Shown here in pieces: positions 35,569 through 51,010 of a stretch of DNA of 64,000 bases. The DNA lies in contig NC_063156.1 of the NCBI RefSeq assembly GCF_020921035.1, positions 21,438,283-21,502,282 on the forward strand, in the 5' to 3' direction. Every line of letters starts with the position of its first letter. Position 1 is the stretch's first letter. This DNA comes from Rhodamnia argentea (Eukaryota > Streptophyta > Magnoliopsida > Myrtales > Myrtaceae). The notes under the pieces are model-generated. The model saw only the letters and a program-made list of their open reading frames with translations. It was not told where the DNA came from and did no database searches. Made by a program: the position numbers and the translations under genes.

Positions 35569-36222
35569 GTAAATTTTCCATCATTCCCTGCTCTAGTCTT
35601 CTCCGTGGCCACCTCTCTTCTTCTTACATTTTGGATATTGGTAAAGGCCATGTGAGTATTATAACATGAACTGTATGGTCTTAACGTTTTCTTCAGTAAA
35701 TTTTTCAGCATTCCCTGCTCCGTTCTTCTTTCTGTGGCCACCTCTCTTCTTCTTACTTTTTGGATGTTGGTAAAGGCCATGTGAGTACTATAGCATGAAC
35801 TGTGCCGACTAGATGTTTTCTTCAGTAAATTTTCTGGTATTCCCTACTCCATTCTTCTCTCTGTGGCCACCTCTCTTCTTCTTACATTTTGGATGATGGT
35901 AAAGGCCATGTGAGTATTATAACATGAACTGTATAACATGAACTGTACGGGCTTAATGTTTTCTTCAGTAAATTTTCCAGCATTCCCTGCTCCGCTCTTC
36001 TTTCTGTGGCCACCTCTCTTCTTCTTACTTTTTGCATGTTGGTAAAGGCCATGTGAGTACTATAGCATGAACTATGCCGACTAGATGTTTTCTTCAGTAA
36101 ATTTTCTGGTATTCCCTACTCCATTCTTCTCTCTGTGGCCACCTCTCTTCTTCTTACATTTTGGATGATGGTAAAGGCCATGTAGTACTATAACATGAAG
36201 TGTGTCGAATCGATGTTGCAGG
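35569..36222. repeat. Minisatellite, five ~127-bp units with higher-order duplication
   Basis: Units beginning gtaaattttc start at 35569, 35696, 35825, 35968 and 36097. Each contains gtggccacctctcttcttctta and ggtaaaggccatgtgagta. Unit 4 resembles unit 2 and unit 5 resembles unit 3, so a two-unit block was duplicated. Unit 3 carries an extra 14-base local duplication (ataacatgaactgt). The copia element begins about 30 bases after it. Confidence 0.9.
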
Positions 36223-36534: not shown

Positions 36535-36606
36535 AATTAGTATCAGAGTCCTATTGATCTTAAGGGAGTTGTGAGAGAGTGCTAAATTCAAAGTAGAACA
36601 AGAAAG

Positions 36607-38091
36607 ATGGAACAAATTGGTGTTCCTACTGCCTCATTCTCAACAATCACAGCTCCAATCTTCGATGGAGACAACTACCGGGCATGGGCAGTGAAGATGC
36701 AAGCTTTCATGGAGGGTGCGGATCTATGGGAAGCTGTGGAAGAGGACTACGAGGTTCTTGATCTACCCAACAATCCAACTATCAATCAAATCGGGTACCA
36801 TAAAGAGAGAGTAACCAGAAAAGCAAAGGCAAAATCTTGCTTGTTTTTCGCCGTCTCCTCAACCATATTTACTAGAATCATGAAAAAGGATTCAGCACAT
36901 GATATATGGAATTATTTGAAGGAAGAGTATGAAGGGGATGAGAGAGTGAAAGGGATGAAGGTGCTGAACTTGTTAAGGGAGTTTGAGAGGCAGCAAATGA
37001 AGGAGAATGAGTCTGTGAAAGAGTTTGTTGATAGGCTAGTTGATATAACCAATAAGATAAGGGTCCTAGGGACAGATATAGATGATAAAAGGCTGGTTCA
37101 AAAGATTTTGGTTGCAGTGTTCGAAAGGTTTGAAGCAACCATTGCTTCTCTTGAGAACACTAAGGACATTTCGGACATTAAACTTGCTGAAGTCCTAAGT
37201 GCTCTACTGGCTCGGGAGCAAAGAAGGCTTATGAGGAAGAATGAGCCTATCGAAAGTGCTCTGCAAGCCAAGCTGAAATTGCATACTCGCGAAAAGGGAA
37301 GAGGATGGAACCGGAATAGAAGACATGTTGAGGCCGGTCATAGTCATAGCCGGGGAGGTTCAAGTAGTGGTGGACACGATAGGAAGTGGAATGCGGTTCT
37401 ATGCAAGCATTACGGAAAGAGAAACCACCCTCATTTCAAGTGTTGGAAGAGACCGGATGTGAAGTGCGGGAGGTGTCACAAAATGGGCCATGTTGAGGCC
37501 ATTTGCAGGGAAAAGCATCGGCAACAACAAGCTGAAGGTCAAACTGCAGTAGCCGGTGAAGTGGAGCACCTGTTTGTTGCCTCCCGCTTCATCTCAAATG
37601 CATCTAGAGATGGATGGCTCGTGGACGGTGGATGCACCAACCATATGACAGGTAGTGAAGGATTATTTAGCAATTTAGACAAATCTGTGAAGTCTAAAGT
37701 CGGGATTGGCAATAGAGAATGCATAGAAGTAGAAGGCAAAGGTGATGTAGTGCTTGAAGGTCCTGGTAGTGTTAAGCTTATCACGGAGGTTTTGTTTGTG
37801 CTAAAGATAGATCAGAACCCGCTGAGTGTGGGTCAGTTAGTAGAGAAGGGGTTGAAGGTCGTGTTTGAGAAGAGTGAGTGTGCCATAGGAGATGAGAATG
37901 GTCACATTTTTTTTAGGATTCCTATGAGGAACAAGTGTTTTACATTTGATCCAGTTGATGAGAATTATGAAGCCATGAAAAGTATACAAGATGAGGAGGA
38001 GTTATGGCATAGAAGACTGGGTCATTTCCATAGCAAGGGGCTGCAATACTTGCAGCAAAATGAAATGGCAGTGGGGCTACCTATGTTGTAA
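36607..38091 (+). CDS. Copia Gag-protease and start of integrase, open frame ended by TAA
   Basis: 494 residues. The N-terminal part is a copia Gag (UBN2/DUF4219-like: APIFDGDNYRAWAVKMQAF, then LLREFERQQMKENESVKEF). A CX2CX4HX4C zinc knuckle is at residues 287-300 (CGRCHKMGHVEAIC). The aspartic protease motif at about residue 339 reads VDGGCTNHMTG, with DGG in place of the usual DSG or DTG. The integrase zinc region begins with LWHRRLGHFHSKGL near the end. The frame stops at 38089-38091 within integrase; copia polyproteins normally continue through pol. Confidence 0.9.
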   Translation: MEQIGVPTASFSTITAPIFDGDNYRAWAVKMQAFMEGADLWEAVEEDYEVLDLPNNPTINQIGYHKERVTRKAKAKSCLFFAVSSTIFTRIMKKDSAHDIWNYLKEEYEGDERVKGMKVLNLLREFERQQMKENESVKEFVDRLVDITNKIRVLGTDIDDKRLVQKILVAVFERFEATIASLENTKDISDIKLAEVLSALLAREQRRLMRKNEPIESALQAKLKLHTREKGRGWNRNRRHVEAGHSHSRGGSSSGGHDRKWNAVLCKHYGKRNHPHFKCWKRPDVKCGRCHKMGHVEAICREKHRQQQAEGQTAVAGEVEHLFVASRFISNASRDGWLVDGGCTNHMTGSEGLFSNLDKSVKSKVGIGNRECIEVEGKGDVVLEGPGSVKLITEVLFVLKIDQNPLSVGQLVEKGLKVVFEKSECAIGDENGHIFFRIPMRNKCFTFDPVDENYEAMKSIQDEEELWHRRLGHFHSKGLQYLQQNEMAVGLPML

Positions 38092-40550
38092 AAGGAAGTA
38101 ACCGGCTGTAGAGCATGTTTACAAGGCAAGCAAGTGAGGATTCCTTTCAAAAGGTCAAATTGGAGGGCCAGTGAGAAGCTGCAACTAATTCACACCGATG
38201 TGTGTGGTCCAATGCCGGAGGAATCACCGAATGGCAGCAAATACCTCATCACTTTCATAGATGACTGCACTAGAATGTGTTGGGTGTACTTCATAAAGAC
38301 TAAGGCTGAAGTTAATGAGATTTTTTTGCGATTCAAAAGAGAAGTGGAGAAGGAGAGTGGCTGCAATATCAAGACAATTAGATCGGACAATGGAGGAGAA
38401 TACACCTCGGGCGGTTTCAATGATATATGTGATAATGCGGGGATCAAGCACCAACTCATTGTGCCATACACTCCACAGTAAAATGGAGTGAGTGAAAGGA
38501 AGAACAGAAGTATCATGGAGATGGCTAGATGTATGCTACATGAGAAAGAACTCCCTAAGAAGTTCGAGGTTGAGGCTACCAACACTGCAGTCTTTCTTCT
38601 GAACGGATCGCCCACTAAAGCTCTCAACAAGCAGACACCATTTGAAGCATGGCATGGTTACAAGCCTAAGGTGAGCAACTTGAAAGTGTTTGGTTGCATT
38701 TGCTATTCATTGATTCCTTCTGTTAAGAGAGATAAGCTTGATCCAAGAGGAAAAGCATGTATCTTTGTGGGATATAGTTTGCAATCTAAGGCTTATAGAG
38801 TTTATAATCCCGCTAGCAACCAAGTTGTGGTGTGTAGAGATGTGAGTTTTATGGAAGATAAGAAGTGGGACGGGTGTGTAGAAGGTGGCAAGGCTGAAGA
38901 GGAGGTAGTGCCATTGCGGGTTGAACCAAATGAAGTGGAAGTCGAGGATCTAATTGATCATGTTCTTGTGAGAGGCACTAGATCTCTTGCTGAAATTTAT
39001 GAGAGATGCAATATAGCTATGATTAAACCAGCTAGCTATAAGGAAGCAAGTGAAGATGTGAAATGGTGTGCTGCAATGGAAGAAGAAATCGGAATGATTG
39101 AGAAAAACCGGACATGGGATCCGGTTGAGAGGCCCAGAAACGTAAAGGTGATTGGAGTGAAGTGGGTATTCGGGACAAAGTTGAATCCCGATGGCTCAGT
39201 ACATAAGCACAAAGCAAGACTTGTTGTCAAAGGCTATGCGCAGGTATGGGGAGTAGACTATTCCGAGACCTTTGCTCCAGTGGCAAGGTTAGATACCATA
39301 AGGATCTTTGCGCTCTTGTTGCACAAAAGGGCTGGAAAGTATTTCATTGGATGTGAAGTCGACTTTCCCGAATGGAGAGCTAGTGGAGGAGATATATGTT
39401 GAGCACGGCTGATGGCTTTGTAGTGAGAGATAAGGAAGATCATGTGTATAAGTTGAGAAAAGCCTTGTATGGGTTGGAAGCGGGCTCCAAGAGCTTGGTA
39501 TAGTAAGATTGATAAGCATCTGCGGGAACTTGGGTTTAAAAGAAGTTTGAGTGAAGTGACCCTATATGTGAAGAAAGGTATGGAAGGTGTAGCTATTGTC
39601 TCTCTTTATGTTGATGATCTTTTGGTCACTGGTGATTGCGAAGAGCAGATTGCGGAACCGAAGAGAGGACCCGATGAAGCGGTTTGAAATGACCGATCTT
39701 GGACTAATGTCCTTCTTTCCGGGTATGGAGGTGCAGCGAGAGGAAAGGCGAGGTATTCATCTGTCAAAGGAAATACCTAAGAGAGATCTTAAAGAGATTT
39801 GAGATGGAGGAATGTAGAAGTGTGAACACTCCTATGAATCTAAAGGAGAAGCGTAAGATCGAAGGAGCCGAGCCCTCGATGAAGGAGTATACGGGAGTTT
39901 AGTTGGTTGCTTGATGTATCTAATCGCAACAAGACCCGGATATCTTGTATGCGTAGGTGTGCTTTCAAGATTCCTAAGTTGTGCTGGTGAAGAACACTTG
40001 GTAGCCGCAAAAGAGTGATTAGATACTTGAAAGGCACTCGGTCATTTGGTGTCAAGTTTACTAAAGTGGACAATTGCGGGTTGCAAGGCTTTCTTGATAG
40101 TGATTGGGCTGGTTCGATCGAGGATATGAGGAGTACAAGTGGTTTTTGTTTTACTTTGGGATCGGATGTTTCACCTGGAGCTCAAAGAAGCAAGAAGTGG
40201 TTGCTCGCCCATCTTGCAGGCTGAGTTTCTAGCAGCTCTTTGCAAGCAGCCAATCATGCAATATGGTTGAGAAAGGCGATGCAGGATCCGGAAATAGAAG
40301 TTGAAGGACCAACCGAGATACTTGTGGACAACCAAGCTGCACTAGCCATATCTCAAAATCCTGTCTTTCACGGGAGAACCAAGAATTTCAAGATCAAGTT
40401 CTACTATTTGAGGGAAGTGCAACAAGAAGGTGAAGTGAAGCTACTCTATTGCAAGACGTAAGATCGGGTGGCTGATGTGTTTGCTAAGCCACCGCAAGCA
40501 AGCGGACTTGAGTTACTGAAGAAGAAGGCTGGAATGTGTTCTGCTCCTTA
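38092..40550 (+). pseudogene. Broken copia pol (integrase, reverse transcriptase, RNase H)
   Basis: After the TAA at 38089 the same frame continues with CRACLQGKQ and the integrase core (HTDVCGPM, SDNGGEYT). A second TAA at 38479 falls just after the YTPQ motif. Integrase and the first part of reverse transcriptase continue at 38488-39402 (KWVFGTKLNPDG, ARLVVKGYAQ). A frameshift near 39345 and another near 39475 follow; the YVDDLLVTG catalytic motif is at about 39606. RNase H keeps LDSDWAG at about 40095 but is shifted after about 40200. The breaks are only described here, not repaired. Confidence 0.9.
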
Positions 40551-43242: not shown

Positions 43243-43898
43243 TGACAAACTAGTTGGATGTATTTTCAATGTTGAGCTAGTTGAGCAGATATTATTCGTT
43301 TTTCTACTTTTATTATGCATGTTTAGGCTAAGTGTAAATATGTGAGCTCAAGCTATATTTCTCAATACACCAATATTGGACTATTATGGTCTTTAGAAGG
43401 GAAATATTTATTTCCTTCTTTGAATTTTCAATTCTGTGGTGTAGGTGGGGATAGACATTCTTTAGTTATTTGCAATTCCGTATACGTCACGTACGTATAG
43501 TATAACGTCGTCAACATGTTTGATTAATTCCTAAAAAACTTATGGTAGGTTGTTAAGGAATGAAGAATGAAGAGACACGAGGTATTTGTGTGGATCATGT
43601 TACATAATTATAATCACATTTGGATTATGTCAAAAAAAAATATCTCCCTTTAACGTGATGTTTTCTGTTTCGATTGATTCCTTTTACGGTGTCTGGTGAA
43701 ATCACGGTCCTATGTCACTAGTTCATATTTGTGATTGAGTCATTTTGGTGATATAAAATGTGCATTTGCCTAACATTATTCCAACGCTTGGACTTCTTTA
43801 GTGGTTCTTTATTATTCAAACTTTGAAACATACTCTTTTCTTACATGAATTCTAGTGTTCCCTTTGTTGCTTGTTCATAAATTATAATAGAGAAAAAG
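43243..43898. other. Intergenic, AT-rich
   Basis: No gene or clear repeat is seen between the MITE and the gypsy-type element. Confidence 0.4.
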
Positions 43899-44182
43899 TG
43901 ATGCCGAATCGCAAACGGAAATTGGCTAAACAGGAGAATTGGAATTGATAATGAGGAACAATATGTTCTCTTAGATATGATTATCAAATCGATAGAATAA
44001 TATCAAAAAGTCTAAAGTCCCTTTCACTCAAAACCATAAACACCCTTATATATGGTGCTAACCCTAATTAACCTAGGAAACACACTATTACGAAAATATC
44101 ACTAAAATCACGAAATTATCTAAAATCTAAAATTATGTAATATTACGCAATATTACAGAGATTGCCAATTTTATTTGCATCA
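43899..44182 (-). repeat. 3' LTR (on - strand) of the gypsy-type element
   Basis: 284 bases, flanked outside by aaaag. Confidence 0.9.
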
Positions 44183-44446
44183 TTCTCCTCTGCTAGGAAA
44201 AAGATTTGTCCACAAATCCGGTTCGTCTTCGTTGACTTCAATCTCTTCAAATTCAATCCCATCTCCAAGATTGCGAAATCTGCTTAGTTTGGGACAGCCT
44301 CTCCAACGAATCAAGTAATACATCAGCTTGAGCCCCAAGAAATTCTCTGAAAACACATCTTCAAGTTTATTCATTAAAAGACACAGTGCAAAGTGTACAA
44401 AACTTCCTTTCTTGCTTAATTCACTTTCATCTGCGGGAACTTCCAC
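44180..44446 (-). pseudogene. 3' remnant frame: HSP90-like start joined to an element tail
   Basis: The frame starts VPADESELS, which continues the HSP90-like stretch of the upstream frame across an in-frame TAG at about 44456. After this the similarity is lost. The end (EDEPDLWTNLFPSRGE, just before the 3' LTR) looks like the usual gypsy polyprotein terminus. It is 88 residues in all and not a normal protein. Confidence 0.55.
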
Positions 44447-44452
44447 ATCGAC

Positions 44453-45190
44453 CTATTTGCTTGCCCACAAATAGATGGGAAAGTTAATAAATTTCCAGTA
44501 CTTCTTCACTAAATCTTTCCCATAATCAAATATAACTTCTGCAAGCGGGATCCCCTGATGCATAATTGATGGCATCATATACATGGCCTTGTGCACCGTG
44601 ATATGACACTGGGCAACGACTTTGAGAATCTGGCATATAAAAACTGCTGCATCTTTCTCAGTATAACCGATGTCTTTCTTGGACAATATCCGATCGAGTA
44701 ATTCATCACCATTATATATTCCACAAATAACATACAAATTTGTGTGGAAGCCCCTACCAAATTCAACAATACCTTCATGAATATTAACAATATCCAATAG
44801 TCCAGGCACACGCACCTTCAAAGAACTCGATGTGCCCATCACGTTCATAGTATCCATACAAACTTCCACGGACAACGGACCCAATGCGCAGTCGCGCGAT
44901 TCTTGCACGTAGCACGGACTTGTGATCGCGCCCTCCTTGAGCGCATCCACCTCCCATGCTGGCATCCGCGCCGTCGCTTGGGGGACGTTAGCCTTCGTCG
45001 ACACGATGGCTTCTATTGTCGTGCCTGGATCCGCATCTTCTTGTCCTCCATCGAATTCATCATAAACTGGATCTTCATTAAAGATTGGATCTTCAACAAA
45101 TATTAGATCTTCGTCAAAGATTGCATCTTCGTCAAATATTGGATCTTCGTCAAAGATTGGATCTTGAAGCTCGGGAATCTCGATCTTCAT
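44453..45190 (-). pseudogene. Chimeric frame with CDPK-like and GRP94-like fragments
   Basis: 245 codons inside the gypsy-type element. The first 50 residues repeat a DPIFDED unit and may derive from the acidic protease-reverse transcriptase linker of gypsy pol. Residues about 130-200 resemble the kinase N-lobe hinge of group IV calcium-dependent kinases (CPK16/18/28): GDELLDRILSKKD, YTEKDAAVFICQILKVVAQCH, with the G-rich loop lost and the catalytic HRD absent. The last 25 residues (LVKKYWKFINFPIYLWASK) match the middle domain of ER HSP90 (GRP94). The kinase part lacks every catalytic motif, so no activity is expected. The assignments are from memory of the families. Confidence 0.65.
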
Positions 45191-45244
45191 CCCGAAATTG
45201 AGAAAAGTGGACTGACTTTCGGGTCGTACTCCTCGATTCCGTCC

Positions 45245-45553
45245 CTAGTTCAAATCCTCGAAAGGATTATCATCCTCCTCTTCATCATCGGATGGATCTT
45301 TAGATTCCGCTCCTTCTTCAGATTGAACGTCCAAACTCGCCTCTGCAAGTTGTCGCTCCAAATCCTGGATTCGCCTTCTCTGTTCTTCAATTTCTATGTC
45401 TCGCGGGTCTCTTAGATGCGGTTGTTCGTCCGCTTCGAGAACGACTCCACGTCCCCGACCACCACGAGCTCGCCGTCCACGACCTCCTCGATTCTGTTCA
45501 GCCATCGGTCCAAGGCAACTTGTGCTCCGATACCAATTGATGTCGAATCGCAA
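45245..45553 (-). CDS. Gypsy Gag N-terminal fragment
   Basis: On the - strand the likely start is MAEQNRGGRGRRARGG, within the longer frame whose first codons overlap the LTR and primer-binding site. An RG-rich head is followed by RDPRDIEIEEQRRRIQDLERQLAEA, a typical gypsy Gag opening with a coiled-coil heptad. It ends at a stop after an acidic stretch, about 86 residues from that Met, against several hundred in a complete Gag. The remainder of gag is deleted. Confidence 0.7.
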   Translation of the reverse strand: MRFDINWYRSTSCLGPMAEQNRGGRGRRARGGRGRGVVLEADEQPHLRDPRDIEIEEQRRRIQDLERQLAEASLDVQSEEGAESKDPSDDEEEDDNPFEDLN

Positions 45554-45822
45554 ACGAAAATTGGCTAAACAGGAGAATTGGAATTGATAATGAGGAATAA
45601 TATGTTCTCTCGGATACGATTATCAAATCGATAGAATAATATCAAAAAGTCTAAAGTCCCTTTCACTCGAAACCATAAACACCTTTATATATGGTGCTAA
45701 CACTAATAAACCTAGGAAACACAATATTACGAAAATATCACTAAAATCACAAAATTACCTAAAATCCTAAAATTATGTCAAATTACGCAATATTACAGAG
45801 ATTGCCAATTTTATTTGCATCA
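45538..45822 (-). repeat. 5' LTR (on - strand) of the gypsy-type element
   Basis: 285 bases; on the - strand it is followed by the primer-binding site. Confidence 0.9.
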
Positions 45823-48800
45823 AAAAGTCTATTCCATAGAAGAGCTATCAGAAACTCTGTATAAGGCGATATAAAAGCTATTATTTGATAGACACAGTTG
45901 TTGATCATGCTACACTTTTGGTATAACGCTGGCGATGGTGGTGATCGGTGGGTGGTTACTAACCATCACTCAATTTTGAACTCTTTTTCTTCTAAGTTTT
46001 CATTTATGTGCTTCTCTCTCTCTCTCTCTCTCTCTTAGTGCCCAAGATGTTGCTGCAACATCTTGCAATGCATGGAGGATCAAGACAGCAGTGAGCGCAA
46101 CTTCACCTCACCAAAGCTAGAAGAACCTCCTTCCACCGCCGCGTTAGTTATGCGTTACCCAAGTCCTCATATTTCATCGCCTTAGCTCCAGCGGGCCCTC
46201 CATAGCGGTGTATGTGGTATGCTATTCCAGCGTACCCAAGCCCGAGCTCTATGGGGACGATGAGACGCTCGGCACGTATATTCCATTCAAATATAGAAAA
46301 AAAATATTCGAAAAACATAATAACCAACTCAAAAAAAATTGAAAAAATTTTGGTTTGATTGCTTCTAAATGTTGATGCATGTTACCGTAAATGTTGATTT
46401 CGCATAATTATAATGATTGATAATGGTTTGGTGCATGATTTACATGTTTTACATTCGAGTTTGTAGCTCGATTTTGCGTGTCTAGATGATGGAATCTTCT
46501 GACTTTCTTCAAGAGATTCATAGATCACTTCAAGAGCTTCGATTTCATATATAGATCATCCAAAATGGGCATCGTTTGATCTGTCTAATGCATTCATGAA
46601 TTTCACGATTTAAATTTGTAATATGCTATTCATTCATTTTTCTGTTTTCTAACATATTTTCATGTTTGGACTAAACTGTACCGAGCTAGCATGAATGTAA
46701 AACAAAAAATTCATAAAACAATTTTCGTAGCTTAGATCCATATTTTTTCAACAGCATTTTTTGTGTGCAAAACCGAGATCGTTTGCTATGTCAAAAATAT
46801 CTCATAGTATGAAGTCAAAATTTGAAATTTTTGCTTGAATCTCGGAGGTTGTTCTGTTTCGATTTGACCTTTGTTGCTTCTCGATTTTTTATGATTTTTT
46901 GGAATTTAATTGATAAAACTCTCTCGATAAAAGTTGTTCGTAACATCCAAATCTATCACATAAAAAATTTTCATTGCAATCAAAATCATCTTGATCAGTG
47001 CGATCGTCCCATTAAGAGAATAAAATTCTTTGAAAATTCCTTTTTTGTCCTCACATTTGCATATCATTTGATTTTTATGATTTTTTCTGTGTAGAATCTA
47101 TGGATATGTTCTTCATGAAAATTTCTCGTAATATCTTGAAGCTTGACATATCAAAATTTTAGAAAATTACATGCACATTTAGTATGCACAAAATATGCTA
47201 GAGATTCATAAAATCTACTAAAATTTCTTTAAAAATATTTTTAAATATTTTTAAATATATTTTTATTTTATTTTTCCTTTCATTTTTCTCCTGCTACCGG
47301 CGGCAAGCGGCGGAGGGACTGCGGCGAACAGCAGCAACCGGCTATGGTCGACAACGGACAACGATGTCGGTGGTGGTGAGCAAGAACCGGGGGCTGCGGC
47401 GGACAGCGATGGAAGATAGAAGGAAGCGGTTGTTGGCTACGGCCGGCGGTAGCGACTACGGGCGATGACGGATGGCGGCGGACAGCTATGGACAAGAACA
47501 GATAGCGGTGGTCAACAACAAAGGGTAGCGGTCGAGGCGGCGGCGAGCGGTGGGCGATCGGCCAACAGCTTTTATATTTTTTATTATATTTTTCTTTTAT
47601 GATTTCTTTCATTCACTTATAATAAAAAAATAATAACCAAGTTGAGCCTTTGAAGCCCTGTGCCAATGTGTAACTTGTGGGAGTTGCCCTCATGAGTTGA
47701 AAATGGGTTTAAGTGTGTGATTTATTTTTGACCCATCTGATTCAACTTAAATTTTTTGGATCCCATTTCATTCAGCCCTTTAAAAACTTAAAATCCATAA
47801 CAACCCATTTGTGCACCCATATTGACGGCTCTAACCTCGTCCGAACCTGAATGATTGTGACATAGACTTTAAGAACAATGTGTGGGGCCTTCGCTCTTAC
47901 TCGTGGAATTGAAAGCGAAAGAGCGAAAAGAGTAAATGAAAGTCATTAAGTGCAGTGAATGAGTGGGGACCTCACTGCCTTTTATAGAGAATTCTTCCGC
48001 AATCGACAAGTATGAAGGATGAAGGAGACTCAACCATAGTTCATGCATTAATTGCCATAAGGTTAAACTAATGATTAAGGTGGGTATGTAGTATTCAAGT
48101 GTCCCTAAGTTTATAGATAGGGTGCATGTGGTGTAATGTGATTGACTATAAGAATAGACATTTGGGTGAAGGAAGGAAAGAAATGTTGTCTATAGGCCAG
48201 TTAATCATTATGCACGTTAAATGACTAAGACCATTTGTTGAGGCAGTGTATGACTTCATCTTTACCAATCTTCATCTGCTAGCAAAGGAATAAAGGCTCC
48301 ATCCGCTGGCAAAAGAAGAAATCATTAAATGTATTAAATGCTCTAGGCGATGCAAGTTGTGAAATCAATAACAACATGGGAGGTGAATCCGTCAAGAAGA
48401 AATTAAAAGAGGTGGCATACTTAAAAGAAAGACAAATGGCTCAATTGTAAGATTTCAAAAATAGATATTAATAAATCGTCAAGATATCAAGTAAATCATG
48501 ATGGAATTGAAGAAATTGTTATTCGTTTTAAACATTGATAATATAAAAAAAACATATTGAAATCGTCAAAACGTTTCACAAGATTTTCTGAATGAAATGA
48601 AATATTCAACTCATAGAATTTCAAATATACGACTAGTTTCGATATGTAAACTCGGTGCATATCGGTCTCTGTTGATAACTAACATGGTGTTACGTGATTC
48701 ACCACCACTTTATAAAATCAATATGAAAACAAATATCTAATAAACCGAATATATTTCTCAAAAATTACGAACACGAAAATATATTTCACATTTTCGCTAA

Positions 48801-48879: not shown

Positions 48880-51010
48880 AGGAATTTTCAGGATGTCACA
48901 TATTTCCTCCGATTTTCAATTATTTCTTATATCTCATGGGATTTTGCATCGGACATCTAGTTCTTTTACCCCCAGCAAAATGGGGGGGTGGAATGAAAAA
49001 ATCGCCATCTTTTGGATGTTGTTCGTCATCTACTTTGTCATATGAACCTCACCAAAATGTTATGGGCCATGTTATTCTTGCAACATGCTATATCACAAAT
49101 TGTCTTTCATTCTCTATACTTCATGGGGGCATACCTTTTTCTACTCTCCATCCTACGAGCCCACTTTTTTCTTTACCACTCCGTATGTTTGGGTGTGTTT
49201 GTTTTGTGGATCGTCTTGGTCCTAGTCATGATAAGCTCAACCCACGGGCTGACAAATGTGTGTTTCTTGGGTACTTTCAAACTCAAAAAGGGTACAAGTG
49301 TTATAGCCCAATTAGTCGGCAATTCTTTCTCTCCACGGTTGTGGCCTTTTTCGAGGACCGGTTATATTACTCCTCCGTTGACCGACCGGTGACTTCTTCC
49401 GAAGATACTTTGTCCTCGATCACGGCTCCACAACCGCCCGTCCCCTTGATGGGGGTGCCCGTGCGATCGCTCGATTTTCAGTTCTTCGACAAGACCTATC
49501 AACGATACCGTTCTGTTCAATGTGAGGAAGTACCGTCGCCACGCACGTTAGACATACATGCTTCTCCACCAATTCATGTCCCGCCCTCAAATCCGTCTGT
49601 TTCTTCCGAGCCCGAATCTACTATTGATATTCCCATCACATTGCGCAAAGGTATGCGTTCTTGCATCGATCAACCGAATTCTCAATTTACTCCCTCTATT
49701 GGTTTATTTTGTCATACTCATACTCCTCACTCTCTTTCTTAGTATTTATCTTACGATTGTCTTTCTTCTACATACTTCTCATTTGTTGCTTCTTTATCTA
49801 CTATGTTTGTGCCAAATACCGTTGTAGAAGCTCTTGCCCATTTAGGTTGGCGGCGGGCTATAGAGGATGAAATACATGCTACATGATAATGGGATATGGC
49901 AAATTACACCATTACCCGATGGTAAACAAGGCGTGTGGTGTCATTGGGTTTTCATAGTGAAGTTTCAACCAAATGGCTCCGTTGACCGTTTGAAGGCACT
50001 TCTGGTTGCCAATGGTTATACTCGGACCTATGGAGTTGATTATGATGATACATTCTCTCCTATTACAAAGATATCTTATGTTCGTGTTTTCATATCTCTT
50101 GTTGTCCGATATGGTTGGACTCTCCATCAGCTTAATGTCAAGAATGTCTTTCTTCATAGTGACTTGGCAGCGAAGGTGTACATGGAGCAACCCTCGGGTT
50201 TGTTACTCGGGGGGAGCCTACTGATGTTAATTGCCTGCACAAGGTGTCATATAGGTTGAAATAGTCTCCTTGTACTTGGTTTAGCCATTTTCGTGATGCG
50301 ATTATTCTATTTGGTTTGAGGCGCTGTGCCGTCGACAATTTTATATTTAGCTCTACTTCTCCTAGGGATGTGTGCTCCTTGTTGTGTATGTGGATGATAT
50401 TATCATCATTGGAAGTGATTATGTGGGCATACAAAAGTTGAAACAGTTTTGACAAACATATATGAGTTGTCTGCGATATTTCTTGGGCATTTAGGTGGCC
50501 TACTCACGTGATGATATCTCGTTATCATAAGACAATATGTTATGAATATTCTTAGTGAGGTTGGTTTCCTTAGAGCGAAGCCTGTCAATACTCCAATGGA
50601 TCCTACTGTGAAGCTTAATGCAGAACATGTCGACTCAATTCATGATCCGAGTAAGTATCAAAGGCTAGTGAGTAAGTTTAACTATTTAACTATCGCTCGA
50701 CCATATATTTCTTTTGCTATTAGTATGGTTAGCCGGTTTATGAGTGCCCATCACATTACACATTGAAATGCAGTGGTACGTGTTATTAAGTACTTAAAGG
50801 GAACACTTGGTGAAAGGCTTCTATTCAAGCATCATGGACATCTTAGTATCATTGGCTACTCCGATGCTAATTGGGTTGGATGTTCTATTGATAGGAGATC
50901 GACTTCCGACTACCGTGTATGCTTGGGAGGCAATCTTGTGAGTTGGAAAAGTAAGAAACAACATGTTGTGTGTCAATCTAGTGCTTAGGCGTAATAACGG
51001 ATCATGGCTC
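48880..51010 (+). pseudogene. Old copia pol fragment (integrase end to RNase H)
   Basis: Broken frames carry copia motifs in the right order: ISHGILHRTS (integrase), the FGCVCFVDRLGPSHDKLNPRA block, VFLGYFQTQKGYKCY, then reverse transcriptase (LVANGYTRTYGVDYDDTFSP, MEQPSG), NTPMDPTVKLN, and RNase H (GYSDANWVGC, RRSTSDY, WKSKKQ). Stops and shifts are many. Gag, protease and LTRs are not seen. It is a different and older lineage than the element at 36252. Confidence 0.85.

Follow-up and report, generated by a model that had tools for sequence, protein, structure and literature searches.

The stretch of DNA analysed here, called the window, comprises 64,000 nucleotides of Rhodamnia argentea (C7:21438283-21502282; C numbers refer to the genome, 346.7 Mb in 74 contigs). 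Sequence inspection and comparison reveal a real LTR element of 1,924 bp on its minus strand, at 43899-45822. The features below lie on this strand unless noted. The preliminary description had recognised an LTR frame, and each of its parts was seen again. The target site duplication AAAAG is perfect and flanks the element on the left (43894-43898) and on the right (45823-45827). Comparison of the LTRs delimits a 5' LTR of 285 bp (45538-45822) and a 3' LTR of 284 bp (43899-44182). By reading, a primer-binding-like site, TGGTATCGGAGC (45524-45535), lies 3' of the 5' LTR, and a purine tract, AGCAGAGGAGAA (44183-44194), lies beside the 3' LTR. We take TGGTATCGGAGC to match the initiator-Met tRNA, with one mismatch in 12. 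Aligned over 283 sites, the two LTRs show 15 differences (K2P 0.055); the LTR pairs of five relatives examined give K2P values of 0.089 to 0.109. At a rate of 1.3e-8 per site per year, the window element is roughly 2 million years old, a figure subject to rates that vary widely between lineages. Elsewhere in the window, remnants of a copia-type element with open frames of 501 and 306 codons lie at 36586-39402 (plus strand) beside a tandem repeat with units of about 129-272 bp (35569-36203), and a further copia-like frame lies at 48882-49742; both copia labels were assigned by reading. Rfam searches at gathering thresholds gave no match within the window.

The interior begins with an 86-codon gag N-terminus (45248-45505), which ends at a TAG codon (45245-45247). 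This is followed by an open stretch of 263 codons, a second TAG and a last stretch leading to a pol-tail-like end. The gag-derived part includes an 18-bp tandem repeat encoding PIFDED repeats (45056-45181). The 3' retroelement part (44183-44426) consists of the pol-tail-like end EIEVNEDEPDLWTNLFPSRGE and the stretch KLEDVFSENFLGLKLMYYLIRWRG, the latter also present in other retroelement copies. The gag N-terminus shares its frame with the host-gene scraps described below and with the 3' part. The interior had previously been described as devoid of pol. This holds insofar as a complete gag or pol is absent; it does not hold for the gag N-terminus and the pol-tail-like end, which remain. Assignment to the gypsy type is based on the gag of one long-gag relative (Pfam Retrotrans_gag 6e-12; Ty3_capsid 6e-4, below the cut-off) and not on a reverse transcriptase. 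Translation of two relatives, L009 and L011, gave a long gag followed by a protease-like stretch.

Between the gag N-terminus and the pol-tail-like end lie scraps of six host genes, here called load A. Only two donors, CPK and GRP94, had been claimed before; both proved correct, and at least six were found. The 616-bp interior at 44331-44946 was used as a genome query and the donors were then mapped. It matches four load-A elements and the donor genes, and its last ~100 bp also match other retroelement copies. The donors follow one another in the order C2:28592998 gene, C6:22849341 gene, AIR9, CPK, TTC38-like gene and GRP94. The first scrap, containing the MPAWEV stretch, is short (44946-44988; 43 bp, 88%), and the second (44803-44936; 134 bp, 84%) comes from a donor with a 398-codon open frame and a paralogue at C10:9748730. 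AIR9 contributed pieces of two exons 5 kb apart, one at 44748-44818 (donor C3:19914855; 71 bp, 83%) and one at 44707-44758 (donor C3:19919924; 52 bp, 90%), joined by a jump inside both exons. CPK is represented by exon A (44673-44718; 46 bp, 83%), which is joined without an intron to exon B (44603-44681; 79 bp, 87%), and by an antisense stretch of about 32 nt (44575-44609, plus strand). A TTC38-like scrap of 29 bp follows (44518-44546; donor C6:25647212), and then a scrap of GRP94, the ER HSP90 (44403-44515), which is interrupted by TAG at 44450-44452. GRP94 thus does not directly follow CPK, as had been stated: the two are separated by the antisense CPK stretch and the TTC38-like scrap. For the respective donors, we presume the names TTC38-like, NPC-like, SKIP22, ARIADNE, CAMTA, callose synthase, germin and group IV CPK.

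The interior could also be read as ordinary degenerate pol that resembles a kinase and HSP90 by chance. The window frame indeed scores weakly against Pfam (HSP90 0.0034 and Pkinase 0.011, neither reaching its curated cut-off), and its best match to PDB Endoplasmin chains has an E value of 5e-4. However, the interior matches donor exons in the same genome at 82-98% nucleotide identity, and ordinary pol decay is rejected for this reason; its probability is negligible. The CPK match lies at C8:4608475-4608553 (87%, E 4e-19), and Pfam recognises a Pkinase domain in the donor exons (4e-16). GRP94 matches C2:4067036-4067124 over 89 bp (93%, E 1e-29), with the tandem paralogue C2:4032094 (113 bp, 86%) as an alternative donor. 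The two GRP94-like genes, C2:4031239-4032202 and C2:4066148-4067124, lie about 35 kb apart and are near-equal as donors. Among the interior's genome matches, no complete gypsy element was found in which it forms normal pol; in L009 and L011, the rest of gag and the protease-like stretch occupy the place of the scraps. Pfam searches with the donors support the kinase, AIR9, RdRP, F-box, BTB/At2g24240 propeller and OSBP assignments. Four queries gave no match: the donors C6:22849341 and C2:28592998, the NPC-like piece and the TTC38-like piece, the last being a weak test in which the start of the query held about seven wrong-frame residues.

Load A is carried by at least four elements, so that the copy count proposed in the preliminary description yields several elements with the same load as well as sister elements with other loads. 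Besides the window element, they are C2:10919930, whose 3' LTR is cut, C4:13538635 and C7:14234650-14237091; the load was thus amplified after its capture. Only the best candidates in the genome searches were scored (the best 40 of 147 in the first search and the best 40 of 57 with the 5' internal part as query, plus loci that were read), and on this basis the family includes at least 12 elements with six different loads, to which about 16 host genes contributed. Many relatives match the window element in the 5' LTR and gag only. Load B consists of an ARIADNE-like RING protein gene (Pfam RING 5e-4, below the curated cut-off) and occurs in at least four elements: C5:16210314, C8:22540369, C3:2590394 and C1:25502361. 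Load C, in C9:24226294, derives from callose synthase (FKS1_dom1 1e-30), and load D, in C11:12058191, from CAMTA (TIG 2e-4) and a BTB/At2g24240-like gene. Load E, in C3:32232000, combines pieces of F-box, RdRP (1e-13), C7:20357019, NPC-like, BTB and OSBP genes; the C7:20357019 piece (67 bp, 91%) has the weakest donor. Load F, in C8:17414353, joins BTB and PPR pieces (PPR_2 1e-23). The C2:28592998 scrap is common to loads A-E. Because its relatives hold other collections of scraps, the family seems to have captured host mRNA pieces on repeated occasions.

Several further loci were noted. One BTB/propeller host gene, C3:31927822-31928445, is the donor to loads D, E and F, with different pieces in each. 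In the C1:25502361 copy of load B (read over C1:25502700-25504200), germin-like coding sequence, together with the sequence after its stop codon, has taken the place of the 5' half. In the ARIADNE-like donor (C11:20459300-20461000), a 91-bp segment of the RING exon is present twice, in nearly identical form. Two loci, C2:10979486 and C2:10993436, were left out of the family count, as they have a gag N-terminus followed by unrelated sequence; the corresponding stretches (C2:10978400-10979600 and C2:10992400-10993500) are 97% alike and represent either a duplication or a seventh load. C5:22216157 is not a member, as its match is confined to the gag-repeat stretch of an ordinary relative.

The preliminary description had suggested looking for missing donor introns, and they are indeed missing. 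The CPK intron is absent from the element and the splice joins are exact. The C7:14234650 copy retains a longer TTC38-like part (91, 87 and 30 bp from three exons) and a longer GRP94 part (43, 139 and 108 bp, also from three exons), from which two TTC38-like and two GRP94 introns are absent. This longer middle is lacking in the window, C2 and C4 copies. The absence of the CPK, TTC38-like and GRP94 introns identifies spliced RNA as the source. The other loads were compared with their donors in the same way. ARIADNE-like exons are joined in load B across donor gaps of 413, 89 and 665 bp. The callose synthase of load C is represented by nine colinear pieces spanning 8 kb of the donor, with one 30-nt step without a match, and a CAMTA intron of 492 bp is absent from load D. 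The donor matches of load E cross no well-supported intron; an OSBP donor intron, supported by a 19-bp match, was not counted. Both donors of load F match uninterrupted, apart from one single-base gap. The window element is thus very probably a non-autonomous LTR retrotransposon copy, of gypsy type by its gag, in which the middle has been replaced by scraps of processed mRNA.

The same observations bear on a capture at the DNA level, in which genomic gene pieces would have been acquired as by Pack-MULEs or Helitrons, or by gene conversion. DNA elements of this kind characteristically contain chimaeras of several genes. That DNA elements capture genes is also described in the accessible part of PMC13317346. 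Yet introns are gone wherever a match spans one (CPK, TTC38-like, GRP94, ARIADNE-like, callose synthase, CAMTA), and all load pieces are in sense orientation, except for the about 32 nt of CPK. This explanation is largely refuted by the missing donor introns and is considered very improbable.

The missing introns would also be accounted for by exon trapping, in which elements in or near genes give read-through transcripts that are spliced and later recombine as RNAs. The joins speak against it. Those read between donors lie inside exons, frequently with microhomology. In the window copy, these within-exon joins include the AIR9 jump, the antisense switch in CPK and the transition from GRP94 to the 3' part. 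At the CPK switch, the element follows the exon as far as GTGTCAT; from there, about 32 nt copy the other strand of that exon, the turn lying at a 4-nt inverted repeat (TCAT/ATGA). This antisense stretch is also found in the C4 and C7 copies; the C2 load-A copy gave no separate match to it. The joins examined do not mostly map to splice sites, and load A is drawn from chromosomes C2, C3, C6 and C8. Exon trapping is accordingly regarded as improbable.

The microhomology at the joins was assessed in 19 host-to-host neighbour pairs, seven each from the window copy and load E, two from load D and one each from loads B, C and F. In 14 of the 19 pairs, the neighbouring donor matches share 4 bp or more, and in eight they share 10 bp or more; the five pairs without overlap are separated by 2 to 31 unmatched bases. 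Among 599 simulated joins, the mean overlap is 0.6 (SD 3.8), with at least 4 bp in 14.2% and at least 10 bp in 2.7%. The window copy has overlaps of 16, 11, 12 and 7 bp and three pairs that are 9, 28 and 2 bases apart. The shortest of these gaps, between the TTC38-like and GRP94 scraps, is a later deletion found in three of the four load-A copies. Load E has overlaps of 4, 16 (containing a gap), 17, 5 and 10 bp and two pairs that are 31 and 28 bases apart; its 10-bp overlap marks a frame-preserving jump within a single OSBP open frame. The remaining overlaps measure 7 bp (B), 6 bp (C), 5 and 12 bp (D) and 16 bp (F).

The reading frame also continues across the joins. The frame of each donor was taken from its protein family or from a long open frame, and for exons of the same gene from mRNA continuity. 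Frames were compared at the joins, and 1- or 2-nt gaps within pieces were counted as later damage. At all 26 joins tested, the frame of the donor continues that of its neighbour: 8/8 in load A, which includes the AIR9 jump, 8/8 in load E, which includes the OSBP jump, 3/3 each in D and F, and 2/2 each in B and C. At the last join of load C, the retroelement side was framed by reading, and the frame of the C7:20357019 piece in load E, which is weakly known, was chosen as the only stop-free one. The 1-2-nt gaps lie inside the TTC38-like piece (A, C7 copy), the NPC-like piece (E), the BTB pieces (D, F), and, for load B, the ARIADNE-like piece (C1) and the C2:28592998 scrap (C8). In the window copy, the gag start, the repeat, the MPAWEV stretch and the YYLIRWR and NLFPSRG motifs share one frame. 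Retroelement and host pieces are thereby linked in a hybrid frame, which is broken today by two TAG codons.

This continuity may instead be an unselected by-product, arising from chance in-frame switching or from shared ancestry that inflates the count. Since the C2:28592998 scrap, the BTB gene and the 3' part (in loads A, D and partly B) are each found in more than one load, the 26 joins cannot all be counted as independent. If all were independent, 26 in-frame joins would arise by chance with a probability of about 4e-13. However, 14 independent joins still give about 2e-7, and the 8/8 joins of loads A and E come mostly from different donors. Comparisons between copies are in line with the by-product explanation: no third-codon-position excess was found in the gag, host or 3' parts (window versus three load-A copies; three load-B copies), so that selection on the frame is not seen directly. 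The gag N-terminus has fewer second-position changes between copies (e.g., 10/3/10). A mere by-product is judged unlikely.

In seven copies, the frame around the MPAWEV stretch stays open for 24 to 263 codons. Together with the lack of a third-position excess, this implies that the frame signal stems from formation and spread and not from today. Frame shifts inside gag, the repeat or the first scrap occur in the E and F copies, the C7 copy of load A and the C8 copy of load B. Two load-A copies deviate further downstream: in C2, GRP94 and the 3' part do not share a frame today, and in C7 the 3' motif was looked for and not found. Judging by their sequences, the present copies look dead and appear to be decaying neutrally.

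We are highly confident that pieces of spliced host mRNAs were captured by template switching onto co-packaged mRNAs and that fusions with a long open frame survived. Host mRNAs would be packaged together with the element RNA, and the reverse transcriptase of related elements would act in trans inside virus-like particles. It would switch templates at short homologies, on one occasion onto the opposite strand. The products that multiplied would be those in which the pieces were kept in the gag frame. The likeliest reason may be that RNAs with a long open frame are protected from nonsense-mediated decay or can undergo translation-coupled packaging. Tentatively, and with more doubt than conviction, the lineage could be seen as living by swapping its middle for host mRNA scraps, its spread tied to translation so that only products open in the gag frame multiply: a frame-checked exon shuffler. 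If so, this repeated shuffling would yield chimeric ORFs of host genes.

The phenomenon as such is already known from Bs1 and GmaRetroS15, with exon-only pieces and three genes; the number of loads, their repetition in one family and the preservation of the frame are unusual. In genome surveys, as far as their accessible texts go, most gene captures by LTR elements are described as isolated events, whereas here at least six loads and about 16 donors occur in one small family. It becomes testable how frequently plant LTR reverse transcriptase switches onto host mRNAs and whether element RNAs need to be translated through in order to spread. The family is a natural source of chimeric ORFs and might also give rise to small RNAs directed at the donors.

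By definition, a TRIM has very short LTRs and lacks gag and any coding remnant. The window element, with its 285-bp LTRs and gag N-terminus, falls outside this definition. Still, it resembles the soybean TRIM GmaRetroS15, a small LTR element for which the available part of PMC4717578 describes a 5-bp duplication, exon-only pieces of three host genes and several copies. The TRIM survey in that text reports 30 elements from seven subfamilies with gene fragments, two of them with exons of more than two genes; frame continuity, as found here, is not given there for TRIMs. LTR elements of maize, rice and sorghum also carry host-gene fragments. In maize, 425 such elements stem from at least 189 captures, and the accessible text of PMC2774510 states that, under the conditions of that survey, none of them held fragments of two or more standard nuclear genes, unlike the several genes per element seen here. 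For rice and sorghum, the part of PMC3726574 at hand lists 672 and 1,343 captured genes in LTR elements, respectively. In the mostly open-access literature considered, including the accessible portions of PMC7264820 and PMC4838847, no published family with many multi-gene loads in frame was recognised, which is no proof of absence.

Pack-MULEs, other Pack-TYPE elements and Helitrons likewise form families that repeatedly carry different host-gene pieces. Pack-MULEs carry exons and introns, according to the available text of PMC4717578. The family described here differs from the Pack-MULE and Helitron DNA transposons in its removed introns and LTR ends, and it belongs to neither. A close parallel in hybrid structure is Bs1 of maize, an LTR retroelement with pieces of three cellular genes, a chimeric ORF and template switching, as described in the accessible part of PMC13317346; its gene pieces consist of exons only (PMC4717578, likewise in part). 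Like Bs1, the window element unites processed segments of several unrelated host genes in a hybrid frame. Unlike Bs1, with three donors in these accounts, the present family combines six donors in load A and seven in a further load, and it comprises six loads.
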